From Nitzschia sp. pyKryTriq1 (taxonomy: Eukaryota; Bacillariophyta; Bacillariophyceae; Bacillariales; Bacillariaceae), in the NCBI GenBank assembly GCA_956465555.1, contig OY101116.1:1674001-1738000 (forward strand): DNA of 64,000 nt, given 5' to 3'. Positions 10,559 to 62,533 of this stretch are shown piece by piece. Within the stretch, counting starts at the first letter, position 1. Each line of letters opens with the position of its first letter. The translations under genes were made by a program, and so were the position numbers. The notes beneath the pieces are model-generated. The model searched no databases. It was not told where the DNA came from and worked only from the letters and a program-made list of their open reading frames with translations.

Positions 10559-11260
10559 GCCGGAACTGGAGCTTGAAATGGTATGATAGCTACCGGTACT
10601 CGTATCGTAGTTGCTGAAGGTACTTTCGGATGATCGATGTTGCGAGCGAACTGGGATAAAACTTTTCTTACCCCGGGTAGGCTCTGATAGCGTGATGGTG
10701 GTGCGTCTTGCGTCCGATAATAATGGTGGTGGTGCATAGGTGGTGGTGCTTCTTGCGTCATATTTTTTTTAAAAATGATGGTGGTGGCGGGTGAGGAGTC
10801 GTCGTCGTCGGTGGTGGGTGGTGGTGCTGTTCGGTGGTCGGTGGGGGCCGCGCTACAGTAGTACCCCAGGTACCGGTACCTGGTACAGTACTATTGTACA
10901 CTACAGTACGTACTGCACTACGTACCGGTAGATAATAATTATTAGCCTAAAATAAAGAAAAAGTCGAAAGATATCGACATTATTGTACTCGTACTTACTT
11001 CTGAATCAAGAGTAGAAGCTGGGACTAAAATACAAGTTTCAGATAGAGAGTGGTGGCGCTATTATGAGGCAATTACAAATAGGTAGTAGGCACTGTTTTA
11101 CTACTGTAGGTTTTAGTCCTGTTGTAGAGATACAGTAGTGAGAAGAGTCGTCGTCGTCGTCGTCTATTATTCAGACGCAGGCAGATAGAGAGGCAAACAT
11201 TGCCTTCGTCGAAGATTACCGAGTAGGAGGAAGAGTGAGTCGTCTACTATTGGTGTTCAA
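10559..11260. promoter_or_regulatory. 5' region of the GH30 gene with GTAC palindrome cluster
   Basis: This 702 bp gap lies between the GH30 start and the 3' end of the CBP80 gene. It holds TACCGGTAC at 10591 and a dense block at 10858-10930 (GGTACCGGTACCTGGTAC, later TACGTACTG and TACCGGTA). A purine-skewed GGTGGTG-rich stretch runs at 10690-10850. No gene is supported. Regulatory function is inferred from position only. Confidence 0.45.
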
Positions 11261-14200
11261 CTATATATTTTCCAAACTCTGCTTCAAGAGGACCACCGCC
11301 GCCGAGGACAGATCCGAAGCACAAACAGCAGCGAGGGACGTGCCCGAGATCTCACTCTTGGATACAATGTCTTCGACTTCGCTAGCAAGCAATGGTTTGC
11401 GGATCCCCGAGGGTTGAGTTAGAGAAGAAGTAAAGAGGATCTTGCCTGCAATAACCAAATTCTTCATGCCCTCGACGAGATCGACTTGAACCGGCTTCAG
11501 CTTCTTCTCATCCAGCTGTGTCGTGACTAGTATGCTGCAAACTCTCTGCAGAGCATAATTCAACACCTGTCCCAGTTTGGATATCAAATTTGTGACGAAC
11601 TCGTCCTCGGATGCACCACCGCCATCATCGATGGTCATCGTGCCCCCCGCAGTAGAATCGCTGGCCGTCGACATCAGACACTCTCGAACGGCAATGGATG
11701 AAAACTTAGACCAGCCAGGAACTATGGGAGCCACCAAGGAATCACCCACATCACGCAAGACCCATTTCAAAACGGACATACCATCCACCACACGATTCTG
11801 TAACAAAGAAACAACCACACTTTCCAGAAGACTAGAATTGAAAGAGGCCATACTTTCAACGCGTCGCAGCAAGAAAGCCCCTCCCTGCACTAGGGCAGCT
11901 TCCCCACCACTGGCTTCGGCATCCTTTGCGAGGACGCCCACCAACGTAGCTTTGTATCGCTCAATGGCCCCAATAATTAATGCGTAGACATCCTTAGACA
12001 AGTTTGAGTCATCCTCCATGTCGTCCTCGCCCCCTTCGACGCCCGTTACAGCCTTTTCCAAGACCGCTCTTGTGCCTTCTTCCAATTGCCTCAATGGATC
12101 CAGAAGCACTCTTACGAAAGCATCGGTTCGTGCCCAGCCAGAATTGCTCGCACTCACAGCAGCTCCCACTTCTTCGCCCTGTAAGTACTCGAATAGAATA
12201 GTCGGGTCCTCTTGATTATCCCAAATGCGACGATTGATCTCACTCTCAAGTGATACCACGGGACTCTCCTCAAATGGCACGCAGTTGCGCCCCAATAGTT
12301 CCTTGGTCAACGACGGCGCCACGCCTCCAAAGGACTGCTTGACAATGATCGTAGGATCGCCAACATTTTCTGCCATGAGATGGAGGGCCCGTCGAACAAA
12401 GGTGCCCCGACTTGATTCCTTGTCCGAGGTGGCATAAGGCTCCCATAACTGCCAGTAGGCACTGGGCCATTGATAATCCGTGTTTGTCAAATGGAAGGCA
12501 AACCAGCAACTAAAGTTTTCTCTGGCAGCTGGCACTAGAGCGGGTAAATAGTCTTGAAAGAGATTGGTAATGGCGATAGCCAATGCCTGAGAGACCCGGG
12601 AAGGTTCCAGCCGTGTCAGTTCCAAGAGTACTCGCGACAAATAGATATGCCGCAAACTCGAGTGTTCCGTCGATTGAGCCAAGAGGGCAAAGATTGTTTC
12701 CAGAATCGCATACTCCATGCCCTTGGAAGGATCGTCCTCGCCGGTGGCTGGAAAGACATGACAAACCCGAAGAAGCTCCTCCGCAGCCGACTTGGCACTT
12801 CCGTATTGCAAGCCTGCAGGATTGACATGACTTTCATGGCTCAACAAACAATCGCGCAAGGTTTCGGCTACAAAGTAACGGTCCAAAAGACTCATAGCAC
12901 GAAATGCCTCAAATTGCTCGTTCTTTGTCCCTCCACCTTCCATTTCTGCTTCTTCTTCATCATCCTCTTCTTCTGGATCTGGGGGAGACCCAAAGATAGG
13001 AAGTCGACCAAAGATGGCTCCCTCCAAATTGAAATACTGTAGTTTGAGGGGACTGTCCGATCCAGGGCCACTTAACAGCAAATTCAAGAGCTGGCATTCT
13101 TGAGGAAAGGCCAAGTAAAGGGGGCTTTCTGTGTAGGTAATGGGCCGACTTTCAGTTTCTTCACCCGAATCAGGATTCGGCACGGCTTTGAGAATCAGTC
13201 CTTTCCACGGAGCGTCGACCGGAATGGCAAAGCGTGAGGCCTGCCCATCCTTTCTCCAATATTTTGTGGCACGAAGTAAATCCTGAAGACTGTCACAAAT
13301 CTGTCCCGACCCCTCGGCTTCGTCGTCCTCTTCTTCTTCCTCCTCGTCATCATCTTGTTCGTCTCCTTCTTCCACTTGAGGTTCCTTGAGCAGAAGAGAA
13401 GTCACCCCCGTCCCCGGCGTAAACGAGGACTTGTAATAGGTCCCCAGAAGCCGTTCCAGAGGCTTACAAAGCTTTTCCTCGATGACATCGCGGGGCATCG
13501 ATGGCAACTCCACCAGATATGGTACCGAACTGAGCACGGTCAATGCCAACCAGCAACTAGCGGTCGGATTGTTGAACTGCTCAGCCGCAGCAGTAGCCGC
13601 GTCCACCAAGACGGATGCAAATCCAAAGACTGTCATACGATTTGGATCCACTGTCACTTCTCCCTCGTAGGGAGTGACCAAGCCCATGTTCGCCAAGACA
13701 CAGATATATCGCAACAAGAGTTTGAGACGACATGTCGACCTGGCCGCGGTCGGATTAAAAGTAAGGAGAGTGGTGTCTAGTTCCTTGGCGATTTGAGCCA
13801 TGGCATATTGCAGACACCGAGTGGCAAAGCCTTCAAAAGCGGGATTCCCCTTGACTTGTTCGTGGACAGCCAAGGTCAGTGCGGCATAGCAGGGCGTTTG
13901 GAGCGGAAGATCAGCGACACAACTGACAACCAAGTGCACCAGCTTGCCGACCTTGTCTTCCATCTTCGGCGCCTCTGGAGAGTACTTCAAAAGCCGCTCT
14001 AATTTGTCGGGGGCACATAGGATGGGCAACAAATCATTAATGTTGGAAGCAGTGGTGTACTCCACCTTACGGAGATCAGTCGTTTCCGTCTCGGGGGGTT
14101 CTCGAAGGTTTTGAAACTCTCCGACTCGACTCACAAACGATGCGATCTGTCGAAACAACAACGTGTCGGGATCCACCTGCTGTTGGTGACCGAACCGATT

Positions 14201-16682: not shown

Positions 16683-16715
16683 ACAAACTAGTTTCCGTTA
16701 GTCGATTCATGTTCT

Positions 16716-19463: not shown

Positions 19464-20268
19464 GTTGATTCTTGATTTCCAGTGTGCGTACTCGTAGTGC
19501 ACTATGCCTCGGATATATCTTGGCGATGCCGTTGGAAGACCTGGGCGGCTGGGATCCGGACGCGTCGCTCAGGTTATCTTCTCTTTCAGTCCAGGCGATT
19601 GCAAGGTCTTCCCTCCAGATTCTATTTACGAGAACAATCAATTACAGCACAGATGATATATGTTTTTGTACTGTCAATGGACAACAGCACAGGCAGATCT
19701 ATTTGTTGTGGGAGAGGGAGATCGGATGGGACAGGTGAGGGTGAGGAGTGCGAGGAGGAGCAGAAGGAGTGCTTTTGCTTTCTCACGCGAGACACGATGT
19801 GTGTCGTCGCGGCGGCGATGAAGCAGGTACGTACCTGGTACCGGTACAGTTCGTGTACCGGTACGGTACCGTACCGGTGCACTGGAACAAAAATGACCGG
19901 GGTGTGTGTGCGCATAAGACATTGGCAACGAGAAAGGACCCCACCGACCCGCACCCCCCCGGCCCCCGGCCGCGGACGGACTCAAATGACTCATTGACTA
20001 CTCCCTCACTTTTTGGTCCTGCGACCTGACCTTCCGTGTTCCGTGTTCTGTGTGTTGTGTGTTGTTTGTTTGAGTTTCGAGTGTCGAGTGTTGACGATGA
20101 TGATGACAGAACTTCCAACGACAACGACCAACGACGGTCATTTCCAACCTCCAGCAGTTTCCCAAACCCCAAGCTAGTCTACAGTATTGCATTTCCAAAC
20201 GCCGGGGTCGTCAAACGCGACGACCTGATCACAGATCACACGCAACTTTAACATTTTTTGAGCAGTAA
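19464..20268. promoter_or_regulatory. Divergent promoter region with GTAC palindromes
   Basis: Between the COG2-like start and the start of the membrane protein at 20269. A dense palindrome block lies at 19826-19880: GTACCTGGTACCGGTACAG, then GTACCGGTACGGTACCGTAC. Around 20036-20080 a TGTGTTGTGTGTTG simple-sequence stretch occurs. No gene is supported. Confidence 0.5.
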
Positions 20269-21299
20269 ATGTTAGCATGGCTGTTGCAAGCTGGCCCCAA
20301 GGACGCGAAACACCGAAGCAAGTCGCATCCTCTGGTGACATTTTGCCTACACTACGCCGCAGTAGCACTGATCACTGTTTCCACCCATGATTGGATGATT
20401 GCAAGAACTCAACCACAACAGCAACAACAACAATCGGAAGGATTCTCGGCTACGGGTTGCACCCCACCAGTCCATCGACAGTGGGTTGGTTTCTTTTTGG
20501 GAGTCTATTTTGTGCTATTTTTCTGCTGCCGTCTGGCTTTGCATTGGAATCATCATGATCAACAACAGCAAGGGGACTTTTATATTGAATTTTACAAGCA
20601 AACCTTCCTTTGTTCTGTCACCATTTTTCATACCGCATTGGGGCTCTACACGAACCGCCCAATCTTGGCAGAATCTTTTTGCGTCGCCGTCGGTATAGAT
20701 CAAATTCTGTGGTATGTCGATTTGACGGGGAAAATTCTCATGTGAGTGCTGTGATTGTACCATGATTGGAAGTTGGAACCATACTTCTCCGTGTTCGTTT
20801 CTCTCTTGGAATGCTTTCATTGATGGTCTCGCTCCCTTATCTGTATCCCTGCATTGAATGAATCATTTCTAGAAACAAATTTCCCATTGGCGTTACCAAG
20901 TATCTTTTCTGGCCGGGCACAAGTTGGGCTAGCCGACTGACATCGACCCATCACTTATGGACGATCCCAGTGGTACAATGGGCCAGTGGCGGTGGTATTC
21001 GTTTTCTGGCTCTTCCCTTGTCGGCCGTCGTCGTGTTGGTCAACGTTCTCTTGTCGCGACTTTTGACACCCCATTCCATTGCTGCCACGGACGATGAGAA
21101 GTATCCCTCTCACTACCTCAACTTGAATCTAGCCTACGAGTTGTGGACCGATATCAAAATGCCATTCTTGCTGGTGCTCGAAGGTAGAGTACCTTATCTT
21201 ATTCGTCTCTTGGTAGCCTGGTGGTCGTTCAATGCGGTCATCTTTGGATTGCTGCGAGTGCTCTCCACCCGAATACTTGGTCCGCCGATAATGTGCTAG
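20269..21299 (+). CDS. Unknown polytopic membrane protein
   Basis: Exon 1 is 20269-20741 and exon 2 is 20873-21299; the intron (20742-20872) begins GTGAGT and ends CTAG. The product has 299 residues. Hydrophobic segments are visible at LVTFCLHYAAVALITVS, WVGFFLGVYFVLFFCC, the LCSVTIFHTALGLYT region, IRFLALPLSAVVVLVNVLLS and, near the end, LIRLLVAWWSFNAVIFGLL. An HDQQQQGDFY loop and a PQQQQQQS run are low complexity. I recognise no family and see no catalytic motif. Divergent from COG2-like and convergent with Rab1 (72 bp gap), but these neighbours do not reveal a function. Confidence 0.75.
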
Positions 21300-21371
21300 A
21301 GTAGTAACATCAAACCGAATCAAAGCGCAAAATACATTCATTTATTCATTCATTAAAACAAGTCTATAAGT

Positions 21372-22672
<1,301 letters not shown>

Positions 22673-23450
22673 ATGATCACCTCTCGCCTGTTCAAGATTG
22701 GATCCGTTCTGACGATACTGATGGGTCTCTCATCGGCTTTTGTCGGCCCTCGCCCGGGATCTACTCGTACCGGTACCGTCGTGCAACATCCGTCCATACA
22801 AAAACGACAAAAATTTACATCTACGAATCCAACGAAAACGTCTCTCAATGGCGTCATGGAAATTGTTGGCGTCAGTCCAGAGCCAATTCACAGCGCCTTT
22901 GCGTTCGCCACATTTGGGCCACAGCCATTCTGGGTGTTAATGATTCTTCTCCCTAAAAACGATATTACGAAAAAGGTTATGGGATCTTTGGGTAAGAAAT
23001 TGTGACCTGATTGTTACAAAAATCACTACGAGTTGACAACGTAGTTTTCTCACGATTTGTTTGACATGCTCTGCAGATGTCGTTATTTTCTTTGCGTTAC
23101 TCCACTTTTTTATTGTGTCGGCATCGATTGTGCAACCGGATTCCACGGCACCACTGTTGGAATTTAATGACGTTTTTGATCCAAGTAAAGATTCCCAAGC
23201 AGCATTTATGAATATGGTTACCAACTATCCGAATTTTGTGGCAGAGGAATGGCCTCATGTTCTGACATGGGATTTGTTCGTCGGCCGATGGGTGTGGCTA
23301 GACGGTCTTCGACGTGGGATTTTTACCTCCCACTCGGTTCTTTTCTGCAACCTAATTGGACCGCCGGGACTACTGATGCATTGGACTACTTGTCTTTTGA
23401 CAGGAAAAGGTTTTGGTGCCAACGAAGCGACAGAGGAAGTGTCCGAATAG
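22673..23450 (+). CDS. ABA4-like (DUF4281) membrane protein with plastid presequence
   Basis: Exon 1 is 22673-22991 and exon 2 is 23077-23450, joining SL to DVVIFF after a phase 1 splice. The start is the ATG of MITSRLF, giving 230 residues. The N-terminus has a signal peptide (MITSRLFKIGSVLTILMG) followed by SSAFVGPRPG, an ASAF-like diatom cleavage motif, so plastid import is likely. The mature part has four hydrophobic segments with HVLTWDLFVGRWVWLDGL and LLMHWTTCLLTGKG, matching the pattern of plant ABA4. In plants ABA4 is needed to form neoxanthin from violaxanthin; in diatoms a link to the violaxanthin-to-fucoxanthin route is plausible, but this is inference. Confidence 0.82.
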
Positions 23451-24382: not shown

Positions 24383-24417
<35 letters not shown>

Positions 24418-27057: not shown

Positions 27058-27829
27058 GTCGAACTACCGTACTGTTCTTGTGTGTGGGAAGAAATAGTGA
27101 ACTCGAACGGAACTAGACTACAGTACTTCTACTATTTCTTTTTCGTTTTGTCAGACCGGTCGTTCGTTGACAAGCCGATCCAGCTTTCCAATCCGAAGCA
27201 ATGCCTGATCGATAGATGGATGTCGTTGTTGATATGGTGATGCGGTCTCTGCGATCCACGCGGGCGTCGTTGTAGTTGTTGTTGTCATGGCGGAAAAAGA
27301 GCAGTGCCGATCCCGAAGGATGTCGGCTATTTGACTCATCCGACCGATGTCGCCAGTCTTCGTCATGCTTCGATTTCTCTCGGTACTGAGTTAGGCGTGG
27401 GGTCCGAATATATATGCCCTTTGACGTCAGCAAGGCACCGTCATCATCTATCTACCGTATGTACTGGTACACCGGTACCGGTACTGTACCAGTTACCGTA
27501 CCAGGGTACAGTAACCAGTAAAGTAATGGTTCCGTCTGGCCGGCCACCGATCGATCCTTTCTCCTTTCTCGCCCTGCGCTCGCGAGCTCTCGCTCTTTCC
27601 CTTCGATCGTCGTTCTTCCGCGCTTCGCTTATCACCCCACGCATGCAGGAGGCGAAGATCTTGTTGTTCCAGCAGTTGGGCTCTCTTCGATGAGTATCGA
27701 CAAGTACGGTAGTCTAATGGTAAAGTATGAAATATCCGTCGTTGCTTCCTGGAGAAGAGTACGTTTCATCTCTTTTGTTTTCATCCAACACATACTACTG
27801 TACAAGCTCCAAGAATCATCATCATCAGA
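27058..27829. promoter_or_regulatory. Divergent promoter region, RPN2 and dihydrolipoamide dehydrogenase
   Basis: A palindrome block at 27459-27512 reads GTACTGGTACACCGGTACCG and continues to GTACTGTACC and CAGGGTACAG. AT-rich ATATATATGCCC occurs near 27410. Short ORFs on both strands have no recognisable product. No gene is supported. Confidence 0.45.
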
Positions 27830-29603
<1,774 letters not shown>

Positions 29604-29731: not shown

Positions 29732-31094
29732 TCAGTCGTCGACTTTTTCTCTCCATGTCGTGGATATTTCTTCCAGCATGGTAGATATTGTGTGTAATCC
29801 TTTCAAGTATCCCGGATCACCGCCGCTCTGCCGCCTCACACGGCCAAAGTCAATCATTTTCACTGCGACCATGTCAAGAGTGCCGTCTGTTTCTGTGTCT
29901 CCTTCATAGGCAATCAGCAAAGAACTGGCACAAAAACAAAACTCATCATTGTCTCGGAACCAGTGCTGCATGGATCTTAGCTTCAATAACACATTGGTGA
30001 TAGTTTTCAGTCGCGCAGGCAACAAGGAGCGGTCAAGAACCTCCAATCCGAAGAAAACAACAAAAGCATCCTTTAAGCCTTCATACGAGCCCAGCGACCG
30101 CCCCAGACCCTTCGGGTAAAACACGTATCCATTGTCCCCGGCTTCTTTATGCGACGGGATATACACCCGTTTTCCCACTATTCGAAATCCGAAAAGCTCT
30201 TGCTGGGGATATTTCTGATGCTCCCGCTTCTTCTTGGGTTCTGGAGCGTCGGGTTCGAAGGTTCGAAATCCCATTTTAAGATCGATCACGCAGGGCTTTT
30301 TGAAGTTCACGGTAATATCTTGCAATACTACATAGCAATCAAGTTGGATACCATATGGACTTGGAAGCTCCGCAGCTTCATCCGAAGAACTCTCTGATTG
30401 TTCGTGCCGAACCATTCCAAAATAGGAAGGCACATTTGCATACAGCCTGCGGAGTAATTTGGCTTCTTTCTCAACAGTCGTCCAAGCATTTAGAATCCGC
30501 TGCTCGCACGCTAACATGTAAGGGTCCTTGAGCAAGAATGCCAAAGAAAAAGCTATGACATCAAACCATGGTGTGGAAATGGGGTCTCTCTTCAAAGAAA
30601 CAAAATCAGCATAGCCTTTGATGCCTGATGTGTGAGCGGCAGCATTGATGGCTTCATAAAACGCCAATTCTCGGATTCCACGATGATCCAACTGTAAAGG
30701 CTTCAACACGTAATCAGGGTCAAGAGTCAAAAGAGGTCGCTTGTGCTTCGATATCCCACCGACTTGTCCAACCATTAAATCTGCGCCAGAAACATGGTAA
30801 GACAACCACTTGCTGGCCCTGTGCCTGGCTCGATCGAGGATTTCCTCACGAGTGTCTGGCCGTTCGTAATCAATCTGACGAAAAAATCAAAGAGAAGGCA
30901 AGAACTTGTTGGCTTCGATGCAGAACAGTCGTTATTGTTGAAAGATCCAGTCATCTTACCATCGCACCTTCCGCTACCATTTTTTCGGCCTGCTCTGCAG
31001 CAGCTTCGGCACGTTTTCTTGCCCGCCATCGAAATAGGCCAAAAATCAGGACAGACGACGTGCCTAAAAGTAGTGAAACTTTGCGACCCGACAT
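29732..31094 (-). CDS. Inositol polyphosphate kinase (IPK family) with N-terminal membrane segment
   Basis: Exon 1 (30960-31094) and exon 2 (29732-30874) are joined at AM|IDYERPD, giving 425 residues. The kinase part has the family signature PCVIDLKMG (about residues 239-247), an SSLLIAYEG motif and KMIDFGRV near the end, all in the right order for IPMK/IPK2/IP6K enzymes. These phosphorylate soluble inositol phosphates. The first exon is unusual: MSGRKVSLLLGTSSVLIFGLFRWRARK is a short hydrophobic segment followed by Arg/Lys, which would act as a signal anchor and place the kinase on a membrane. The specific substrate cannot be told from the sequence. The 3' end lies 128 bp from the dihydrolipoamide dehydrogenase stop. 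Confidence 0.85.
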
Positions 31095-42156: not shown

Positions 42157-42741
42157 ATGGTGCGGACAATGATGATGTTTGTAGTTGTTTGTGAATGACT
42201 GGGAGGCTGTAGAATGCATTGGAATTGGACTGTGGCGTCTGCTTTTTCCGAGAACCGCTCGGCGATGGTGGATGAGTGTTGCCGTTGTTGATGCAGTACT
42301 CGTGCGGGGGCTATGAACGAATTTGGAGACTTTCATCACTCACATATTTCTTGTTTCTCTTCGTTACAGGGTGTCCGTACCAAGACCGTAAAGAAGAGTG
42401 CCCGCACTATTGTGGAGAAGTACTACACTCGCCTCACTGTCGACTTCCACACCAACAAGCGTATCGTCGACGATGTCGCTATTTTGCCATCAAAGCGCAT
42501 GCGCAACAAGATCGCCGGTTACACAACTCACTTGATGCGCCGAATTGCAAAGGGACCCGTCCGAGGTATCTCTTTGAAGCTTCAAGAAGAAGAGCGTGAA
42601 CGCCGATTGGACTTTGTGCCTGAGGTTTCCGCTTTGGAGCAAGAAACCATCCAAATTGACCCCGATACGCGAGACTTGTTGGAATCTCTAGGCTTTGGCA
42701 GTCTCAATGGAGTTTCTGTCAACCAAGCACACCGTGATTAA
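42157..42741 (+). CDS. RPS17: 40S ribosomal protein eS17
   Basis: The main exon (42370-42741) begins after TTACAG and reads [23 protein letters not shown]..., which is the N-terminus of eS17 lacking only its Met. The most economical first exon is the single codon ATG at 42157-42159 (AAAATGG context) followed by a 210 bp intron, giving MGVRTK. The intron donor would be GTGCGG, a weak site, so another ATG nearby could be used. With that start the protein has 124 residues including the conserved [20 protein letters not shown] and MRRI motifs. eS17 is part of the small subunit. Confidence 0.88.
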
Positions 42742-45405: not shown

Positions 45406-46175
45406 CTACGACGATGAAGGGGAATTCTTGACTGCCACTCCCACGAAGACATCTCCCTCGTTCGATCCTCCCATATGCACCTTGGTCAAAAACGACGATT
45501 TGGCTTCCAGTCCTCCCATGGCATACATTTTCTTGGCCTTTTCTTCATCAAACCCGTCCGGGCTTTCTTCCGATTTGGGCCAATCGGAATGACAAAAGAG
45601 ACCCGTCTCTGGTTTCATCAGTTCTCCAATGGCCTTCATAGTTCCAGGAAGATCACCACTAGGTATAAAACTCATAACAGATGAAGCCACTACCAAATCA
45701 ACCGAGCCTTTTAATGCCTCCAAATCTTTTCGAATCGTCTCCTCGGCAGAATCGGCACTGGCCAGTGCCACACAATGAGCGCGAACATTGGTATCCCAGC
45801 CAAATGATTGTATCTTTTCTTCCAGCACTCGAACCATGGAAGGCGCGGCATCAATACAGATGAATTGTGACGAAGGAGACTTCCTTCGCAAGGAATCTGT
45901 CAACAGGCCAGTTCCGCACCCAAAATCGACGACGACTCGTTTGGCCGTCGGATCCAACCCAGTCTGCTCCCACAATATTTTAGCAAAGGCATTTCGGTAT
46001 CTTGAAGCTAAATCATCCCATTCTCCTGCCATACTGTACAGTGCATGGAAGGAAGAAAATAATATCGAGGAGTAAGCTCAGCAATCTAAATATAATTAAA
46101 ACCGATAAATGTGAGAACTTACGCATTCCATTCGCTATTGATATCTTCTTGGGTCTTTCTTGCGCAAGAGGACAT
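45406..46175 (-). CDS. Class I SAM-dependent methyltransferase, family unassigned
   Basis: Exon 1 is 46123-46175 (MSSCARKTQEDINSEWNA) and exon 2 is 45406-46033, joined at NA|MAGEWD, giving 226 residues. Motif I is VVDFGCGTGLL at about 52-62, motif II has ICIDAAPSMV, and VDLVVASSVMSFIP represents the strand 4 region. The profile fits UbiE/Coq5-like small-molecule methyltransferases, but the substrate is not shown. No targeting peptide is evident. Its short first exon and the GTAAGT donor are typical of the window. Confidence 0.8.
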
Positions 46176-46774
46176 GATGTTTTTATCTTCTACGAGTAAT
46201 CGAAAGCAGCAATACGTGTACAGATCAAATCATCAATTATGAGCGCTAGCGAGAAGTCTACGCGAGTGCTCTCTAGCTGGTAGTAGAGCGTTGAGAGGAC
46301 TGTGGATGATGATGGGGGGTTGTTATTTGTCATGTGAAGCAAGAAATTAGGATGAGAATAAGCAGCAAGAAAAGCAAAAAGCAAGCGCCATCATCTCAAC
46401 GTCGCACGAACCGAACACAAAAAGATCGCATATCTGTCGAAAATTGTCGGGCGAGCTTTGGCTGCGTACTGTAGCCCTGTACCATCAGGTACCGGTACCC
46501 TACAGGTACAGTACCGGTACTACTTACTGTATTGCAGAGCCCTGTACCGGTGTACCTACCAGGTACAATTACAGTACCTGGTACCTGGTTGGTTCCAGTA
46601 CCGTGTACTTGTACCGGGTACAGGTAGCAGGGATATTCAATCACGAAAGATGATTCATCAATGACGCGATACGGTATGCATATCATACCTGGTACAAGGT
46701 ACGGTAGCATAGTAGACTACCGTAGTAAGAAAAAACCAAAAAGTTATTTTCGTACGTACTCGTAGTCTACTAGT
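46176..46774. promoter_or_regulatory. Divergent promoter region with GTAC palindromes
   Basis: The methyltransferase start lies to the left and the TLC protein start to the right, beyond the 760 bp mobile element. A palindrome block at 46478-46720 has CAGGTACCGGTACCCTACAG, GTACAGTACCGGTACTAC, CAGGTACAATTACAGTACC, ACCTGGTACC and ATACCTGGTACAAGG. No gene is supported. Confidence 0.5.
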
Positions 46775-47534
46775 GGGTGACTCCCGAAATTGTCGTACCC
46801 AGATCCGAGTCTGGGTACGTGCGCACCAGATCTGGGTCCAGTCCGTCAGTCTGTCAGTAGTAGGGAATCTTCCTCTCCATCAGAGGCGAACTTGAGTTCT
46901 CATCCCCCAAAAAACTGTCGAGCCAGTCGAGCCTGACAATCACTTTCCTCGTCACTCGATACCTCTAACTACAGTGTGCACACTCTAGAGTTTCAAAAAC
47001 TGATTCAAATCAAACAGAAGGATAACACTATTAATCTTAGAATGTCAGATAGACTGTGTCAAAAAATATTGGCGCTCTTAGCTCTTTATCCCTTCGTTTT
47101 TGATGTGATAGTAGCAGTGAATCATTTTTCAAATTATTTTATCATGTTACTACCTTGAATTCCATTTATATCCATCAAAATGAATCCATTAAATCTGGGA
47201 AGCGGCGTTATTATTATTCTTAGTGTGGTTGAGATAATGACAATGGTGGTTTATTGTTGGATGTATTCATCTGGTCCGATTATTTCTGATGAATGTATTG
47301 TTTGATGATGATGGGATTTTGTTTTGTGTGTTGTGTGTTGTGTCGTTTGTGTGCGATCTGAACTCCCCCTCGAAAATGCATTCGTACCAAAATATTCCCA
47401 AAATGTAAGATTCCCTTGATCTGGGTCGGCGACCCAGAAACTGGTAGTGGTTCGGGAACCACTACCGGTTTTTGCTGACGTGGCGTACCCAGACCGTACC
47501 AGTCTGGGTACTCTGACAATTTCGGGAGTCACCC
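46775..47534. mobile_element. Non-autonomous DNA-transposon-like element with 20 bp terminal inverted repeats
   Basis: The left end GGGTGACTCCCGAAATTGTC (46775-46794) is the exact reverse complement of the right end (47515-47534). AGT at 46772-46774 and at 47535-47537 fits a 3 bp target duplication. Subterminal inverted repeats GTACCCAGA...TCTGGGTAC (46795-46818) and GTACCCAGA...GTCTGGGTAC (47485-47511) follow inside both ends, and the right flank has further hairpins, CTGGGTCGGCGACCCAG (47421-47437) and a 28 bp arm-loop at 47441-47468 (CTGGTAGTGG...CCACTACCGG). The interior is AT-richer and has no long ORF, so it would need a transposase in trans. The superfamily is not assigned. Confidence 0.72.
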
Positions 47535-47784
47535 AGTATGCGACGTGACGGCGAAGCGATTGTATTCTTCATGGTGATGAATGATGATGAGATAATTTTT
47601 TTTCCCATTCAATCTCTGAACTGTGACAATGACAGCATCAATCGAGCATTGAGAATACGTCTACCAAAACGACAAACAGCTCATATTCATTCACCACAGA
47701 CAGCAAGCCATCGAGGAAATATTGCAAGTACTTGTACTAACAAAGGACAAGCTTACTATCGACCTCAGCCAACACCAACAGCCA

Positions 47785-51600: not shown

Positions 51601-52108
51601 CTTTGCTGGGCTGATCTAGTAGCAATTTCCACTCAGTAAAAGGCCCTTGCTGCTTATTCTTTGCTGCATTGCCTTTTGCTGACGTTGTTGTGGTAGCATC
51701 TAATGCCAGCTCTTTGATTTCTTTCAGAGCCAATTCCCATTGTTCTCGAGAGGCTCTGGCTCGTTCTGGATCTTGTAAGCTTTTCTGGGATCGATTGATC
51801 GACTCTGCCAAACTAATCACCTGCGTGGGCGTTCTGTCCTTGCTGTTGTTGTTGCTACTGCTGCTGCCTTCGTTGGAGGATTTCCGTCGTTTGTTCGGAG
51901 GATCTGTTGCACCTCCAGAAACACCGGATATTACCAAGAACAGAAATAATAACAATAATGTCATGGCGCAAAAGAAAGTCACGTGGCGACGAACATTCTT
52001 TGTTCTGTTTCGTGTGGCAGTACCGGTACTTGTACCCTGACTACTTCTACTCCAACTACTACAGACCATGACTGTTGTTGTTGTTGTTGTTGTTGTTGTT
52101 TGCTCCAT
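48684..52108 (-). CDS. DGD1: Digalactosyldiacylglycerol synthase (GT4 family)
   Basis: Seven exons: 50754-52108, 50568-50658, 50466-50483, 50379 down to 49779, 49524-49693, 49324-49444 and 48684-49249. All junctions keep one frame, 973 residues. The start is MEQTTTTTTTTTVMVCSSW; a TTGCAG just upstream may mark a further 5' exon. A signal-anchor (CAMTLLLLFLFLVISGVSG) is followed by a low-complexity segment, then the DGD1/2 glycosyltransferase: WIVTTAALPWMTGTAVNPLLRAAY, ILEEPEHLNW, VVGIVHTNYFAYA, CRAHCHRLIKLSG, VHGVRASFL and the GT4 signature STSEVLTTTTAEALAMGKF. It makes DGDG, a major galactolipid of plastid membranes. Exon 3 is an 18 nt micro-exon (PAAFIR) within a tandem duplication. Confidence 0.9.
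50403..50588. repeat. Tandem duplication of an exon-intron border in DGDG synthase
   Basis: Copy A (50403-50502) and copy B (50504-50588) both contain GATGTGTGAGGATAA...GCAGCTTTGT...AACTTACC and the exon tail GGTCGGTAGC[A/G]TAGGCAA. Copy A has an extra 18 bp (50466-50483) that is read as micro-exon 3. As a result introns 2 (50484-50567) and 3 (50380-50465) are paralogous over most of their length. Confidence 0.85.
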
Positions 52109-52671
52109 CACAGCAAGGGATGGAAAAGATGGAAACTTCTTCTGCAAGAAAGCAAAGAAAAATCAATGTCTTCGCTAGCTTGATATTCTTTGATCCATCT
52201 TCAAGGCCTACCGCCTATCTTCACACACCAATGAGGATAATCGATTATTATTTGATGGATTGTTGTTCGTTGTTCTCATCAGAAACCAGAAACCCACACA
52301 AACAACGAACGTCATGGTGCCCGTGGCCCGTGGGTTGAATGGCGCGGCGGCGCCGCGGCGATGCGATGACGATGACACTCCGCAAAAACTTTCAAAAGAT
52401 CAGGACGACGTCACGCCAGCAAGACGTCAGCTGTCAGCTCAGCTCATCGTGCCGCGAGCACGCGCGCATTAGTTTGCACTCGAACTAATCCATGAGAACG
52501 ATGACTGCTTTTTCACGGAAAAAGACCGCGAGAAATGGTGCCAATACATTTTGGTCGGCAAAATAAGCGGACACCATACACCATACCAGTGGTAAATACC
52601 GGTACACAAACACGAGTGCTCGTACTCGTACCGTTACCGTTACCGTGCCATACCGGTACTGTACGAGTACA
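52109..52671. promoter_or_regulatory. Divergent promoter region, DGDG synthase and guanylate kinase
   Basis: TACCGGTAC occurs at 52598 and ATACCGGTACTGTACGAGTAC at about 52649, right before the guanylate kinase ATG. Further upstream CTCGTACTCGTACCGTTACC is seen near 52620. No gene is supported. Confidence 0.45.
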
Positions 52672-53529
52672 ATGGTTTGGGGCATTGCTGTTGGAGCTAT
52701 CGCGATTGTCTGGAGTCTACTCCTACATCATAAGAACACACCGTCAACAACAACAACAACAATAACGAAAATAGCAATCATGCCGGAACAACCAACGCCA
52801 GTAGTTTTCTGTGGTCCAAGTGGGGTCGGGAAGGGCACCTTGATTGAAATGCTGATGAAGCGATTCCCGAACGACCAATTTGGCTTTAGCGTGTCCCATA
52901 CTACGCGAAAGCCACGGGAAGGAGAAGTCGATGGAAAGCACTACCACTTTACGACTGTGGAAGATATCAAGAAAGAAATCGATGCTGGAAAGTTCGTGGA
53001 GTACGCCGAGGTACGTCCGTTTGCTCGTTCGTATTATATGACATTGGAACTCTTCTCGAGGAGTCTCTTTTTTTTTCACAGGCACCACCGCTGACCCTTT
53101 GTTTCTACAAAACGCAAAAAGGTACATGGAAATTACTACGGCACAAGTATTGAATCGGTGGAATCAGTCCAAAAGCAAGGGAAAATCTGTATTCTTGACA
53201 TTGACATTCAAGGAGTAATGAAGGTCAAAGAGTCGACCTTGAAGCCTAGGTTTTTGTTCATCAGCCCGCCATCCATGGAGGAGTTGGAGAAGCGATTGCG
53301 AGGACGTGGTACCGAGACAGAGGAGGCGATCAAAAAGAGACTTGGGAACGCAAAGGCGGAAATGGATTACGGTCAAGAGGCTGGCAATTTCGACCGAATC
53401 TTTTTCAATGCGGACCTGAATAGTTGCTTTGAGGACATTGCTTCGGCTTTCAAGGAATGGTACCAGCACCTCGATGAGGTGGCCCCGGATGACCCGCAAA
53501 AAAATTGTACGTCCTGCACAATATCGTGA
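52672..53529 (+). CDS. GUK1: Guanylate kinase
   Basis: Exon 1 (52672-53010) and exon 2 (53122-53529) meet at AE|VHGNYYG, in frame; the donor is GTACGT and the acceptor AAAAAG, unusual but the only frame-consistent choice. The product has 248 residues. The P-loop GPSGVGKGT (48-56), [17 protein letters not shown], the [12 protein letters not shown] motif and [10 protein letters not shown] are all standard GMP-binding elements; the enzyme phosphorylates GMP/dGMP. The first 36 residues ([18 protein letters not shown]) form a hydrophobic leader absent from soluble guanylate kinases; translation could also start at the internal ATG at 52780 ([10 protein letters not shown]), giving a cytosolic form. 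Confidence 0.92.
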
Positions 53530-53865
53530 TTTGATTTTTACCGGTAGGTTACTACTCCCACTTTCTGCCTGGCAGAAAGTTGTCTTGTTCCGCGTCCGGA
53601 GTGATGATGATTGTTCAGGTTTTGTTCCATTTTTCAGTTTGCCAACGCCAACTGTCTTATTTCCTTCTTGTTTACTGTGTTGTCGGCCAATCCAGGAAAC
53701 CTTCCGCTCAACTAGACAAACAACAACTTGGTTTCATGTGTATGGCATTTCAAACCAGAAACGGGACACGGGGGAGAATATTCTGGCGAAGAATATTAGT
53801 TGGTGGGTTCTACTCCTAGGCCTTAGTACTACTACTGATAGGGAAGCTCTCGAATTCTATCACTA
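53530..53865. other. Convergent 3' gap, guanylate kinase and NAT9
   Basis: 336 bp with one TACCGGTAG near 53539 and no gene. Confidence 0.5.
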
Positions 53866-54684
53866 CTAATAGGAATCATCTTCTATTGGACATCTAACCT
53901 CGCGGTAGTTACCATGAGCTCCCAATAATATTTGCAGTTCACCCCACGGAATTTCAAGTTCAAGCTCGACCTGCTTGAAGCACTCAGCGTAGTCACATTG
54001 TACAAAGCCGAGACGCTTGAACAGGTTGATCGAGGCCACATTATCGTCATTGATTTTGCAGAAAAATCTTTGAATGTCAAGTTTTTTCGCCCCGTAGAGT
54101 ATCATAGAACACGTTGCTGCCCTTCCGAGACCTTTCTTCTGGTAGTCTTTGTCCGCAATCATAATGTCAACTTCGGCCTGTATTCGAGGTGTTTCGTTGG
54201 AATCCACCTTGTCGTTTCTATTTTCTTCTTCGCCGCCGTCATCGTCGTCGTCGATTTCGCTCAAGAAAAGGTTCACGTCGCCCACCATACCAGCAAGATT
54301 CGCTCGCACGGAAAAGTCATCCATCTCCGACGAGGAGTTGTCGTCGTCGCCGCCAATGGGACAGGCTTCCGTCGAATGCACAATAAAGGTGCACTTTTTG
54401 GGGTCGTCCCTCCAAGCTTGTTGCATTTCCATTTCTTCCTCGAACGAAAGAGGCTCCGATCCAGTTGCTTCTAGCAACGCTGGATCTTTCATCCAATCAT
54501 GATAGCGAGGAACATGTTCTGGACCTGATAAAATCAAAAACAGTGGGTAACTCCACAAAAAATGAGACTCCTCGCCACGAATGCTCGTGTACATAACTCT
54601 ATCTAACCATCAGTCAGCAGACTTACGATATGGAACGAGAATCACTTTCTCTCCAATCAAAGCCGTCTCATAGTTGAGCTTCAT
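53866..54684 (-). CDS. NAT9: N-acetyltransferase NAT9-like (GNAT)
   Basis: Exon 1 (54627-54684) encodes MKLNYETALIGEKVILVPYR; exon 2 (53866-54524) continues with PEHVPRYHDWMKDPALLEATGSEPLSFEEEMEMQQAWRDDPKKCTFIV. The intron (54525-54626) has GTAAGT and TCAG. The 238-residue product reads MVGDVNLFL and then the acetyl-CoA-binding YQKKGLGRAATCSMILYG. These match NAT9 throughout; the acidic EDDDDDGG insert is specific to this protein. NAT9 is a GNAT-fold enzyme reported to affect microtubule stability, and its substrate is not settled. Confidence 0.9.
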
Positions 54685-55105
54685 CTTACTACGGCTACCT
54701 TTACCGAATACCTCCCATCGATGAAAGGATGCAGATAGAGGCAAAGGAATGAATAGTATGGAGGATGGAGGAAGAAAAAGATACGTTTGCTGTTTGCTGG
54801 CTTCTGGCTTCTCGAAATACTGTACGTGTGAATCCTCGACCAATTTGATTAGCTTTGTGTGCCGCCAACAAAAGATCCACGTGCTGGATATGACCTGCTG
54901 TAAGAGGTGAGCGACTATACCTGGTACCGGTGGGCCGACGAGATCTCCCTCCAACCTCCAACATCCAACACTCATAACACTCCATTTTTTAACACCGACC
55001 GTCTCTTATTGACCCAAGTTACCTTGGAAGTTGGAAGAGATATAGCAACTGCTCTCAAGATCCTCGTGCATGAATGAATTATCCCAAATAATCTCTAGAG
55101 CCTCA
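54685..55105. promoter_or_regulatory. Divergent promoter region, NAT9 and lumenal methyltransferase
   Basis: CTATACCTGGTACCGGTGGG at about 54916-54935 is the palindrome signal here. No gene is supported, and a minus-strand ORF over 55006-55362 is an antisense shadow of the methyltransferase. Confidence 0.45.
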
Positions 55106-55930
55106 ATGAAGAAAGGATCCATTTTTCCTCTGATATTATCGGCGGGAATCTTCCAGTCAGCATTTGGCTTGTCGTCGTCGTCACCTCCAAGGATCGCAGT
55201 CTCGCGTCGATCGATCCTTCGAACAGCCGTTGTGGCTCCAATCCTTTCGTGCCCTTTGTCCACACGTGTTGTTCGAGCAGAAGAAAGCACCAGGCCCTTC
55301 GAGTCCAATGCCTTTCCAAAAGCCGAGCTGACAAATTCAATTACCGCATCCCGCGATACCAATGTTTCTCCAATGGAAGTTTACGACACACTACGGTCAA
55401 AGCTGCGAAAAAATGCCAATGTAGAGGGGGCAAGAGCTCTAGATGTTGGCGCTGGAGCGGGTGTTTCAACTCAGGTGTTGTACCAACAATTGGGTTACAA
55501 GACAATTGATGCCGTGGACTGGTCGGGTGTCGCTTGGGAAACAAATGTAGTGGAAGCTGGATTTTGCCCACCCACGGTCCGTTTCTACGAACTAGACGAT
55601 GAACGATTTGTGAATGAGTGGCAGAAACTGGGACTGCCTCGGTACGATATCATTGCCTTCAATTTCGCCGTGAACAAAGACAAGGCTCAGTACTTCTGTT
55701 CAAATCTTTTGAAACCCGATGGTTTGTTGCTTGCACCGATCAACATTCAAAAAGATTACTGGCTGAAACAAAGCTATCAGCTACTGGATGCAGAGGGCCG
55801 AGTTGCGTGGAGTGCCAACGATGTAGGAGCTTGGCAAGTACTGTTTCAACCAGATGTGACTCAAGACACTTGTCAAGGGATTTGGTGCGCTCCATTCAAT
55901 GGGTTCCAAAAACTTCGAGTATACAACTAA
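55106..55930 (+). CDS. Methyltransferase-like protein with plastid and possible Tat lumen signals
   Basis: One exon; the ATG at 55106 (MKKGSIFPLILSAGIFQSAFG) is preferred to 55070 because it gives a clean signal peptide. The product has 274 residues. After the signal peptide, the SAFGLSS motif resembles the diatom ASAF plastid-import motif. A twin-arginine RRSILRTAVVAPILSCPLSTRVVRA segment follows and looks like a Tat thylakoid-lumen signal. The body has motif I ALDVGAGAGVSTQVL (near 112-126), IDAVDWSG, then YDIIAFNFAV and a LLKPDGLLLAPI strand, typical of class I methyltransferases. The substrate is unknown. Its 3' end is 62 bp from the small membrane protein gene. Confidence 0.75.
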   Translation: MKKGSIFPLILSAGIFQSAFGLSSSSPPRIAVSRRSILRTAVVAPILSCPLSTRVVRAEESTRPFESNAFPKAELTNSITASRDTNVSPMEVYDTLRSKLRKNANVEGARALDVGAGAGVSTQVLYQQLGYKTIDAVDWSGVAWETNVVEAGFCPPTVRFYELDDERFVNEWQKLGLPRYDIIAFNFAVNKDKAQYFCSNLLKPDGLLLAPINIQKDYWLKQSYQLLDAEGRVAWSANDVGAWQVLFQPDVTQDTCQGIWCAPFNGFQKLRVYN

Positions 55931-55992
55931 TTCGGCCCTTCATTACTCTCTACAGAATGAATGAACTGTTAGTTTGCTCTGTGCGTGTATTA

Positions 55993-56843: not shown

Positions 56844-59800
56844 ATGTTTTCACGGAAGTGTTTGACGACGAGCAGAATCCCTATCCGAACATTGAGTTCG
56901 ACGACAAAAAATCACAAAATAATTCTTCGAAGAAAACACAACCGTCTTTCCGGATCATTTCTTCCAAGTTCGAGGCTGTTAGCTCGCTGCGTAGGATCAT
57001 GTAACACCTTCCAGGAAGTCCAGATTCGTTTCTGGTCCTCCCATCAAGAAGACTTGTCGTCGCACGTCGATGATGAATCTTCAAAGATCCACGACGACCT
57101 TCTGCTAGGAGAGAACGAACTTGTCCACGATAACAAACCAAGTACGGAAACTGCACTGGAATCTGAAGCGTCAATTTCAAACAGCAAAAACAACCACCAA
57201 GAAATAATGGGTATCTCACGGCGGCAGTTCTTGATCGAAGCACTAGCGAATGAAGTTACAAGAAACGTCGAGGAGATTATCCGTCAAGTCGACCGTCACC
57301 GTCGTGCACCCATCATCCACGAGGCATCCACCAGCGATGATTCGCCACGAGGTGCTGTTGAAGGACCATCGTCATCCCAAAAGCGAAATAACTTTGCGGA
57401 CAAACCTCTATTGGAGCGTTGGAGGGCAGCATTACATCGTGAGAAGGAGAGACACCGTCGAAGACATCATGCAAAGGTCGATGGTGATGATGATGATGCA
57501 AGTAGGACAACTTTGCACAAAATGACCATCGATGAGCTCTGGATTCGGGCATTGGAGGGCTCTGGGATGGACGTTCTATTAGGCGATCTTACCGGATCCG
57601 AAGGAAATGATCACGACTCTTTGCAACTAGATCCCATGGCAAGCACCATTCATGAGACTTTCAGCGAAGGGATCACCCGTACCGGTAGGGGTCAAGTAGT
57701 ATCACCTATATTTGGTCTCACCATGGATGAAAGCGGCAGGATTCTGGAGAGTGAAATTCCTGTACTAGATATCAACCATGAAAGCTATCTCCAGTCACCG
57801 AAACGCTCCAGCCAGGACAGTACATTCATGTCAATGTCCAAGACGGCACACGACGTTTCAGATTCAGATAGGGAATCGGAGTTATTGACGGACAGTGTTC
57901 TACGAGTCAAGGCCCTCTTTGTCGCTACAAGGAAGCAAGATTGGGCATTGATCAGGCGAGGCTATGGAGAGGATATTGATATTTCCAGCGAAGAGGCTAA
58001 GCGTGAAAATGACAAGCAGACTCCTCGCGTACACTGCAGCGATGAAGCGGATTATGCGAAAAATCTTCTTGACTATGCAAGGGAGAAGAGAGTTATGCTA
58101 ACTTCTGATGAAAACAACCTCCTCCTAGCCTGCTTGCTCACCTCAAACGACATTTCCAGAGACGAGATTTTGGAGAAATCATTACAGTATTTCAACGAAA
58201 TGAGTCGGTTTCCGATGATTGGGATGGATGCCAGCGGGCCGAATTCCGCAACCTATCGTCTGTTATTTCTGGGGCTTCCAAGAAGATTGGACGCCATTGG
58301 GGAAGCTGCAAGAATATGCAGGTCACTGTCTGAGTCGTCGTCCGTCGAACTGAATTCGGAGACGCTCGTGGAAGCCATGCGAGTCTGCCAAAGCTACGCT
58401 GACGTAGACACTGCATCACGACTCATGACAAAGGCGATGGATCCAAAGAGTACTGGTACAGCAGGGCCGACCGTTGGATCATGCACAGTATTTATCGAAA
58501 TGCTAAAGGACAAAAATATGATGAAAGAAGCTATCGATTTCTTCGACAGAATCCATGAGGTAAGAGCCAATGCAATTTTCTTTGTTCAAAGTGAACTCTC
58601 CTCACAATCAATATCGATCTTGAATATTAGGCCAAAGTTTTGCGGCCCGATTTCGAAGAAGAACTTTTATTTCAGCTTTGCCGTTGGCCAAATAGATCAA
58701 GACAGGGAGATGCCATAGACTGCACATCCGTACTTCTTCGTGTCATGGATGCACTTTTCGAAGCACTCGAAAAGAATCGAAGGCCACAAATACAACTTTG
58801 GATTACCCTGATTAAGCGGCTATCAGACACTTCAAAGCTCGACCCATCCCTTGAAGTTAGCATTAATCGTACATTTCGTTGTATTCTTGATGCTTACCCC
58901 GACGTTTGGCCAGGAAATGATCTTTTGAGGATTGGACTCCGCACATCTGCGGTGACGAATGATGCAGGGCTAATCTCCGAGCTCATCGCTAGGGAGGTGC
59001 AGAGAAAGCGAGGACTTCACGAAAAATCGAGTTCTAGGATCGAAGCAGATGCTGGTGATTCCAGGTATCTTTCATCAATTCCACAGATGGTATTTCAAAA
59101 AGCTCTGGAAATGGCGCTCCAGAATGCCGACGCAGCGTCTGCGTCTTCCATTCTGATTTGTTTGGAGGACGTTCAAACCGATTATCCGTTGAGTGCTAAA
59201 TCAGAGTTGTATGGTCTGGTCGTTCTTTGCTACGCCCGAGCATCCCGCAGTAGAGAAGCAAAAGAGCTTTTGTTGTCTATGGTTGAAAAGGGAATGAATA
59301 CATCGGATGAATTGTTCGGCGCTGTCCTTCACAGTTTGGTTGTTGACGGAAAGGCCGATGAGGCTCGAATGCTCTTTCAATCGATGCAAGAAGACGAAAC
59401 AAGTTTGCCAAGTCCAGACGTGTCTAGCTATAACGCAATCCTCGTCTCACACATCCAAGCGCGAGAGTGGGATCAGGCGATCTCTTTCTTCGATGTTACG
59501 AAGGACAGGGGCGTTGCCATGAATTCCCACACAATCAAAGGGCTGCTGCTTGCGCATGTAAGCAGAGACGGAAGGGAAGCTGCCGTTGCTTTCGTGGAGA
59601 ATCTGTTGGTCATTCAAGCCCCCATAGACGAAGCGACCTTTCAGTTAGCTGCTCGCATCATACTGCCGGCGTTGGGAGGAAAGGATACGGATGACATCCG
59701 CAGCAACGCCAGGAGAATCGGAGAAGAGGAACCTTCCTTGCGGGATGCTTCTGTGAAACTAATTCGCTCCGCTAGAGTTGCAGAAGTTGAGGTCAAGAAG

Positions 59801-59932
59801 CTGAAAGCCAAGCAACCTGATAGGAACGGCCTTGTCAAGTCTGATTCACGTGAATATTGGCAAGAGGCTCTCTCGGATCTACTAGATCTCAGCCGTAAAG
59901 TTGCCAATACTGCGGGTAAGACCGACCTGTGA
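56844..59932 (+). CDS. Pentatricopeptide repeat (PPR) protein, mitochondrial
   Basis: Exon 1 (56844-58559) and exon 2 (58631-59932) join at HE|AKVLRPDFEEE; the 71 bp intron has GTAAGA and TTAG. The product has 1005 residues. The N-terminus (MFSRKCLTTSRIPIRTLSST) is basic and Ser/Thr-rich and fits a mitochondrial presequence. The first 350 residues are low in recognisable structure. From about 440 there are helical pairs of PPR form, including MMKEAIDFFDRIHE, ELFGAVLHSLVVDGKADEARMLFQSM and SYNAILVSHIQAREWDQAISFFDVTKDRG. PPR proteins bind organelle RNA for processing, stability, editing or translation; the target is unknown. One TACCGGTAG lies inside the CDS near 57678. Confidence 0.8.
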
Positions 59933-61581: not shown

Positions 61582-62533
61582 GGTGGCGACTGTTTTTGCT
61601 CTTCTTTGATAATGACAATGCTGGTCCTTTATTTGAACAAATAAACAAATCTCTTTGTTTGTCAAGAGAATGAGTACGGTAGACTACTGTACTCGTACCA
61701 GCACAGTAGTGGATCTCAACGATGATGATGATCATGATGATTCTTCCGTTGATGTTGATTTCGCGGGATCTGGTATCTGGTAACGGATCTGGGTTGCGTG
61801 TTGCGTTCTCCTTGTTCCGAAATTTGAAATTGGCGATCAGTTACTGTAGTACCGGTATGTACGTACTCGTAGTACCCGTGGGGTAATGCTGTACTGTAGG
61901 CGCGGCGCGTCATTCATTTGCTCAAATGGGGGACGACTTCAGACTGGACAACTTTTGGTAGGTTCCCCTAATTATGTTTTCCACAATCCATCGCCGATCC
62001 ACGCATGCACGTTGCGTGTAGTCGAAACCTGACGTCATTCATGACGACAGCTCAAAATAATACATGTGCAGGAGAGAAGGCCAGACTGACACGTGAGATC
62101 TACATAAGGAAAATCTTCGACCTTTAAACTTTGCTGATGTCATCAGCTCTCTCTATGTACCAGGCACTGTAGACCTACCGTACTGTACCGGTACAGTACC
62201 GGTACAGTACTCGTGCAGTACTCGTACCTGGTACCAGGTACAGTACATACTCGTACGAGTACTACAGTATCTCGGCGGGCGGCATGCAGGAAAGGAAGAA
62301 GAACAACCCTAAACAACCACATCATCACGCGGCCATCACTTTTTCTCGCATCATCATCGTCGTCGTCGTCAGATCTCGCTCGCCGTAGTAGGAGAAAGAA
62401 TTCTTCGACATCCATCATCCATCATCTCCCCGTTCTTCTGAACGCAGAAAGTACGTGTAGCGTAAAGTTACTCTTTCCGACAGACATTACTCAAAGAAAC
62501 AATTCATTCTACTTTCACAACAATCCGACAACA
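61582..62533. promoter_or_regulatory. Divergent promoter region with long GTAC palindrome block
   Basis: TAGTACCGGTATGTACG occurs near 61848. A dense block at 62178-62262 contains TACTGTACCGGTACAGTACC, GTACCTGGTACCAGGTACAG and ACTCGTACGAGTAC. (CAT)n and (GTC)n runs occur near 61720 and 62355. No gene is supported. Confidence 0.5.

Follow-up and report, generated by a model that had tools for sequence, protein, structure and literature searches.

The question raised by a 64,000-nucleotide stretch of the diatom Nitzschia sp. pyKryTriq1 (contig OY101116.1, positions 1,674,001 to 1,738,000 of the forward strand; hereafter the window) is what the short palindromes that recur in its intergenic DNA represent. 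An initial annotation described them as words with a GTAC core marking almost every shared 5' region. They are read here as a putative promoter-proximal binding element, TAC-(1-3 bp)-GTA, of which TACCGGTA and TACC-W-GGTA are the foremost forms and which occurs in homotypic clusters upstream of diatom genes, and this reading is probably correct. Binding by a dimeric regulator at promoters accounts for the observations better than a microsatellite, a transposon or an RNA hairpin does.

The excess of the palindrome words over chance is real. The window contains 28 copies of TACCGGTA, 31 of GGTACC, 13 of GTACCGGTAC, six of GTACTCGTAC and one of GGTACCTGGTACC. In 100 dinucleotide-preserving shuffles of the window, which served as the chance baseline, the mean for TACCGGTA was 0.34 with a maximum of 2 and that for GGTACC was 8.5, while TAC-NN-GTA was found 117 times against a shuffle mean of 6.6 and GTAC 389 times against 153.6. 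The genome (40,651,789 bases in 20 contigs) was searched with the reversed word as control and contains 15,515 copies of TACCGGTA compared with 839 of its reversal, or about one per 2.6 kb of the 40.65 Mb. TACCWGGTA was found 5,371 times (control 371) and TACTNGTA 19,619 times (control 4,798), the latter tally including TACTAGTA, which is itself distributed otherwise. Judged by these shuffled and reversed counts the words are far above chance, TACCGGTA more so than GTAC. In the sample defined below TACCGGTA ranked first of 96 8-bp palindromes of the same composition, with 103 copies against 25 for the next, and when the 8-mers of the first 292 kb were all ordered by z-score it came second, after the triplet-repeat word TACTACTA.

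Position relative to genes

Position was assessed in a sample of 331,783 bases consisting of the window, from which the finding itself arose, 24 selected stretches of 10 kb and eight FCP loci; loci L001-L008 were excluded because the motif had selected them. Gene blocks were defined by a coding-potential segmentation trained on long open reading frames (ORFs) with no annotation used, and their ends are coding ends, not transcription start sites. Same-strand coding pieces no more than 200 bp apart were merged and gaps of less than 80 bp were dropped, which yielded 159 gene blocks and left 134 gaps, 39 of them divergent, 58 tandem and 37 convergent.

A count of the words by gap class and in coding sequence had been proposed with the initial annotation, and in this 332-kb sample an upstream bias is seen. 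In the zone 150-800 bp away from gene 5' ends TACCGGTA has a density of 1.19/kb (61 sites in 51.2 kb; bootstrap 95% interval 0.87-1.59), 0.35/kb near 3' ends and only 0.020/kb inside gene blocks (4 sites in 195.5 kb). The control word CATNNATG showed no upstream excess in the same zones. By gap class, TACCGGTA was present in 19 of the 39 divergent gaps (40 sites), 27 of the 58 tandem gaps (47 sites) and 5 of the 37 convergent gaps (5 sites), the corresponding figures for the window alone being 7/10, 3/9 and 1/9. Convergent gaps are short and gap classes were therefore tested by permutation within length strata, using gaps of 200-1500 bp in the sample as it stood before the last 40 kb were joined. 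For the seven 2-bp spacers taken as a set, 46/69 divergent and tandem gaps were occupied compared with 11/26 convergent gaps (p=0.013). Among five-prime gaps of at least 400 bp, any palindrome of the wider set was found in 80/87 and three or more in 64/87, compared with 17/19 and 11/19 for convergent gaps of that size.

The first description of the pattern is too strong for TACCGGTA itself, which is present in 45 of those 87 gaps. The accompanying statement that convergent gaps have none does not hold, as one of the five occupied convergent gaps lies within the window, with its site at 53539; the five convergent gaps that had been cited are 33-233 bp each and 501 bp in total, too short for their emptiness to be informative. 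Two single copies had been placed in coding sequence; that at 57678 (57680 in the present coordinates) is coding, whereas that at 22766 falls in a divergent gap by the segmentation.

The rise and fall of density with distance bears on a structural reading, in which the palindromes would act as a cruciform or as an RNA hairpin in 5' leaders. Six chosen array stretches do fold better than their shuffle mean (z = -4.1, -2.5, -1.7, -2.2, -1.0 and -1.6), but negative z-scores are to be expected since any array of palindromes tends to fold well, and three of the six values are weaker than -2. Moreover, an 8-bp palindrome with a 2-bp centre would be unable to form a stable hairpin alone, and TACCGGTA is sparser in the 150 bp next to the first coding block (10 sites in 18.9 kb, 0.53/kb) than at 150-800 bp. 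The RNA hairpin that was among the options first offered is accordingly left unsupported by the drop in density near starts and by the folding scores, and the structural reading as a whole is very improbable. Nothing pointing to a recombination or replication feature, another of those options, was observed, although no test was aimed at it.

The element looks to be generally used. Motif load showed no correlation with codon bias, employed as a proxy for expression (Spearman 0.02 in 125 genes; reference codons from the gene blocks at the eight FCP loci). Such general use would also suit a chromatin-architecture or insulator element, at which an abundant general factor would mark the boundaries of compact genes and not regulate particular ones. 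The very high genome count, the occurrence of TACCGGTA in about half of the larger 5' gaps, the absent link with codon bias and the sites in some convergent gaps all agree with this; several distinct spacer classes, on the other hand, suggest more than one binder, and the oomycete relatives of the word correlate with stage-specific expression (PMC3520976, PMC3597505). An insulator is considered unlikely, although it is the rival to which we give most weight.

The repeat unit and its clusters

It is also clear that the unit of the pattern is not the GTAC core originally proposed. In 5' gaps bare GTAC exceeds its shuffle mean by a factor of only 2.2-2.6, and single copies occur in every type of gap, and for these two reasons GTAC was dropped in favour of TAC-N-GTA, the spaced repeat being what is enriched. 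A scan of all 64 trimers as inverted or direct repeats at spacings of 0-10 in non-ORF DNA placed TAC-N2-GTA top among inverted repeats (351 against 57.2 expected), followed by CTA-N1-TAG, TAC-N1-GTA and GTA-N4-TAC, the last representing partly the same sites with an outer G and C.

Spacer length and sequence are both constrained. In 70 kb of upstream DNA, spacers of 0, 1, 2 and 3 bp were found 42, 151, 234 and 57 times against expectations of 16.6, 14.7, 14.8 and 14.7, and 28 of the 57 spacer-3 sites have CAG/CTG, that is TACC-W-GGTA. The strongest enrichments were for the spacers CG (71 against 0.68, 105-fold) and CAG/CTG (28 against 0.32, 86-fold), with GA/TC (55 against 2.15, 26-fold) and A/T (106 against 8.0, 13-fold) next, while the 2-bp spacers AT (1 against 1.2) and GC (0 against 0.95) were at or below expectation. 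When single changes in one half of TACCGGTA were counted in the same DNA, which has 71 intact sites, one of the 12, TACTGGTA, had 29 sites and the other 11 had 1-12; among symmetric changes AACCGGTT and TCCCGGGA had no site and TACATGTA had one. The base directly outside the repeat is the only clear extra signal, with G at 55-63% for 2-bp spacers and 49% for 1-bp spacers.

The nearly flat flank profile beyond that one base bears on whether the palindrome is the footprint of mobile elements or is carried by a repeat family. The genome copy number of TACCGGTA is high, and PMC3520976 mentions that in C. elegans words of the TACATGTA type occur as rare footprints of transposon excision, but the best flank identity of 102 sites was about that of random intergenic positions and reached 80% at none. 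With shared flanking sequence not found among these sites a transposon or repeat family is disfavoured, and we regard it as the most improbable explanation considered.

Clustering is pronounced. The nearest other TAC-N1..3-GTA lies at a median of 15 bp from TACCGGTA and within 50 bp for 68 of 92 sites, compared with a median of 128 bp and 85 of 291 for positions drawn at random from divergent and tandem gaps. Distances between GTAC pairs peak at 1-3 bp and again at 7-9 bp, matching runs such as 62176-62269. Closely packed copies might result from sequence drift, in which non-coding DNA accumulates microsatellites rich in GTAC, or simple repeats prone to slippage, and no protein binds them. Locally repetitive arrays do exist: 1393-1548 is (GTACTG)26, and at 62176-62246 a tandem repeat finder detects a loose period of 11 bp with 76% matches. 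An exact short tandem unit (3x) was found within 20 bp of 13 of 103 TACCGGTA sites, and triplet-repeat words such as TACTACTA are very common too. The remaining 90 sites, however, have no short tandem repeat nearby, and overlapping pairs are diverse, with 62 different sequences in 93 occurrences over 43 gaps; slippage would also leave the symmetry, the avoided AT and GC spacers and the upstream bias unaccounted for. A microsatellite origin, with head-to-tail identical units at so few sites, is improbable.

Position, two-sided symmetry, spacer rules, homotypic clustering and the occurrence of the same word in oomycete promoters thus favour the promoter element, or binding site of a dimeric regulator, that was among the original suggestions. 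Several observations weigh against it. TACCGGTA occurs at 0.48/kb far from both gene ends (10 sites in 20.9 kb), its density within 300 bp of a 3' end (11 sites in 31.5 kb; interval 0.11-0.62) is still a third of that upstream, and for this word on its own the length-stratified permutation gave p=0.064 (28/69 divergent and tandem gaps compared with 4/26 convergent); for these reasons the position bias may partly reflect non-transcribed DNA and not strictly an upstream location. Direct repeats are also strong in non-ORF DNA (TAG-TAG, 210 against 29.5; TAC-N3-TAC, 292 against 59.6), part of the excess being produced by the arrays themselves. Two symmetric changes of TACCGGTA are still enriched upstream, TACTAGTA with 19 sites (24-fold) and TAGCGCTA with 8 (12-fold). 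The pairs of half-sites are not independent (C/C 71, G/T 55, A/T 34, C/T 29, T/T 19, A/G 12, A/C 8, C/G 5, A/A 1 and G/G 0), which makes several binders or a heterodimer likely and would not be predicted by a single symmetric homodimer. Finally, the direct observations are those of abundance, upstream position, symmetry, spacing, clustering and unshared flanks, whereas the regulatory role is something that we infer.

Within the window the palindromes lie where they were first reported, TAC-GTA palindromes with N, NN or CWG as spacer occurring in every one of the 11 listed spans, which together measure 1,683 bp and contain 19 of the 28 copies of TACCGGTA; the list missed the other nine, of which only the two supposed coding copies had been named. 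The tandem gap at 10587-11269 has a cluster at 10590-10930 with three TACCGGTA and other TAC-N1..3-GTA sites, and beyond the listed span a GTACTCGTAC site at 10985-10994. Two TACCGGTA with spacer-1 and spacer-3 sites form a cluster at 19826-19880 (divergent gap 19469-20279), and five TACCGGTA are dispersed over 22169-22775 (divergent gap 21862-23061), including the one at 22768 formerly called coding. Dense TAC-N1..2-GTA sites make up an array at 27453-27512 (divergent gap 27063-28093), a long array at 31420-31719 has spacers of 1, 2 and 3 bp, the last CAG/CTG (divergent gap 30874-32177), and an array of five TAC-N1..2-GTA at 36285-36350 is without TACCGGTA (tandem gap 35542-36888). Absent from the first list were two TACCGGTA at 41787-42050, with a third at 40924, in the tandem gap 40859-42367. 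A further long array at 46478-46720 contains 17 GTAC and two TACCGGTA (divergent gap 46032-47743), and three TACCGGTA are accompanied by TACTCGTA, TACTGTA and TACGAGTA at 52021-52670 (divergent gap 51929-52812). The span at 54916-54935 is weak, having a lone spacer-3 site, TACCTGGTA (divergent gap 54554-55304). In the divergent gap 61589-62842 there is a TACCGGTA site at 61848-61860 and the densest array of all, with spacers of 1, 2 and 3 bp, at 62176-62269. Two counter-examples are the TACCGGTA sites at 53539-53546, in the convergent gap 53494-53907, and at 57680-57687, in the coding block 57004-59925. Outside the window, the interval from C1:275041 to 275389 contains four TACCGGTA and one TACCAGGTA; the silicic acid transporter match that starts at C1:275839, some 450-800 bp downstream of these sites, is an example chosen by eye and one of five such matches on this contig. 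In all, the silicic acid transporter family has eight matches in the genome, of which seven score above 870 bits and five lie within 240 kb of that contig (C1:79892-317295); the chlorophyll a/b-binding family has 72 matches. Together with the 153 HSF domain matches described below, these two families point to a diatom genome.

Other words were distributed in various ways over the zones of the sample. The upstream density of TGACGT was 0.61/kb, but this word also reached 0.53/kb far from genes and 0.40/kb in gene blocks, with 0.10/kb near 3' ends; AP-1 was slightly raised upstream (0.21 compared with 0.13, 0.10 and 0.08 in the other zones). Neither CCAAT nor TTCNNGAA had an upstream excess in these zones, TATAAA was densest near 3' ends (0.54 against 0.31 upstream), and counts of E2F and TTACGTAA were too small to judge. 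Also enriched upstream were CTCTCTAC/GTAGAGAG and AGTAGAGA, possibly as part of an initiator-like element. A different group of words, CTACTAG/CTAGTAG, TACTACTA/TAGTAGTA and TACTAGTA, favours convergent gaps and positions remote from 5' ends across the gaps of the sample, with examples in the window at 37859-39175 and 40859-42367. CTACTAG/CTAGTAG occurs at 3.49/kb far from 5' ends and 0.78/kb at 150-800 bp upstream, and permutation of convergent against divergent gaps gave p=0.0008 for this pair, 0.089 for TACTACTA/TAGTAGTA and 0.14 for TACTAGTA; the group may mark 3' regions. Elsewhere in the window the (GTACTG)26 microsatellite, with its GTAC unit, is followed by a 7-bp repeat, and large ORFs with repeated DUF7467 domains lie at 4132-7449 (minus strand), where there are also PT repeats, and at 32134-35559 (plus strand).

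Candidate binding proteins

If the palindromes are bound as proposed, a dimeric sequence-specific DNA-binding protein would read both halves, TAC and GTA, or alternatively several paralogues with slightly different preferences for half-site and spacing would do so. The occurrence of 1- and 2-bp gaps, and of a distinct TACC form spaced by W, suggests that either the dimer is flexible or there are several paralogues. At a cluster a number of dimers could bind jointly and open or activate a promoter, and the clustered dimers could act on one gene or on both promoters of a divergent pair.

A profile search of the genome, counted exon by exon for three families, gave 153 matches to the HSF domain, 44 to Myb and 29 to bZIP. 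Because it has most of these matches, and because the classical heat shock element consists of inverted trimers with the same 2-bp gap, the expanded heat-shock-factor-like family is put forward as the first candidate binder, albeit tentatively. Against it, canonical TTCNNGAA is not enriched upstream (0.24/kb compared with 0.41/kb in gene blocks), and a canonical-looking F.RQL..Y.F helix was present in 9 of 20 sampled HSF domains, these being high-scoring ones among the 153 and including one, L038, with an in-frame stop that is probably an intron. Classical bZIP sites come in two spacings one base apart, which makes bZIP proteins a second candidate, though a weaker one. The oomycete HSFs assayed in PMC11267843 are reported to bind TTC, which also counts against the heat-shock-factor-like family, and a term search of the main text of that paper did not find ACCGG.

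Two single open frames have multiple matches to the HSF DNA-binding domain, C8:1704104-1705888 (934 aa, four matches) and C6:2200352-2202073 (704 aa, three matches). Pairs of HSF and FCP matches with the same scores were noted on C1 at ~4.23-4.33 Mb and on C3 at ~3.09-3.20 Mb, which suggests either a segmental duplication or a region duplicated in the assembly.

A broader and distinctly speculative proposal is that an old promoter code of TAC/GTA inverted repeats is common to the stramenopiles. Its spacer (CG, TC, W or CWG; AT in oomycetes) would select the member of an expanded transcription factor family, the reader in diatoms being the heat-shock-factor-like family with its half-site moved from TTC to TAC. 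Were this true it would explain both the role of most diatom HSF-like proteins and the presence of the same word in oomycete and diatom promoters. If functional, the element would be a cis-element of very high abundance in a diatom genome. TACCGGTA would then offer a concrete probe for finding its binding protein, with AACCGGTT, TACATGTA and TACGCGTA as contrast words, and would permit tests of what the large HSF-like family binds and of whether diatoms have a promoter element in common with oomycetes.

Relation to known elements

The Grainyhead/CP2 site AACCGGTT has the ACCGGT core in common with TACCGGTA. The two words differ in abundance, AACCGGTT being found 186 times in this genome compared with 1,303 for its reversed control, and a Grainyhead/CP2 identity was rejected on this count. 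Searches of the genome with PF04516, the CP2 domain, and with PF03110, the SBP domain (the SBP-box site has a GTAC core), returned no match, but the control genomes gave none either. The heat shock element TTC-NN-GAA resembles the present element in its inverted trimers and 2-bp gap and differs in its half-site, TTC instead of TAC; gaps of 1 bp have been reported for an oomycete HSF (PMC11267843).

In the open-licence PMC literature no diatom precedent for a TACCGGTA element was found among the matches listed, only oomycete ones. The string TACCGG occurs once each in two diatom papers by text match, and a term search found none of the strings TACC, GGTA and GTAC in the main text of PMC10967249, PMC4915529 and PMC12538271.

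The closest likeness is to the oomycetes. Promoter motif discovery in Phytophthora infestans yielded two palindromic motifs, M94 (TACCGGTA), identical letter for letter to the present palindrome, and M93 (TACATGTA) (PMC3597505). In contrast to TACCGGTA the M93 word is not enriched here, with 692 copies genome-wide against 696 for the control. Reporter tests were carried out on six P. infestans motifs, among which M94 is not named in the available portion of that paper, and clusters with 1-3-base spacers, as seen in this diatom, are likewise unmentioned there for M94 and M93 (PMC3597505). Seidl et al. (2012, PMC3520976) described motif-1 (TACATGTA) and motif-9 as Phytophthora inverted repeats correlated with infection-stage expression; motif-9, an inverted repeat like the present one, lies upstream of 1,284 Phytophthora genes, and the authors read such motifs as possible homodimer sites. 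Motif-9 is given elsewhere as GTACCGGTA and equated with ATACCGGTAT, the streme-5 motif of Plasmopara halstedii, which has the same core and lies upstream of 206 genes (PMC10031896). The outer base is A in streme-5 and mostly G in this diatom. As with M94 and motif-9, TACCGGTA is over-represented upstream in Nitzschia. Given that this 8-mer has been reported from promoters of both Phytophthora and Plasmopara, this kind of element is already known, and what is new is its occurrence in a diatom, its abundance, its spacer grammar and its clustering.

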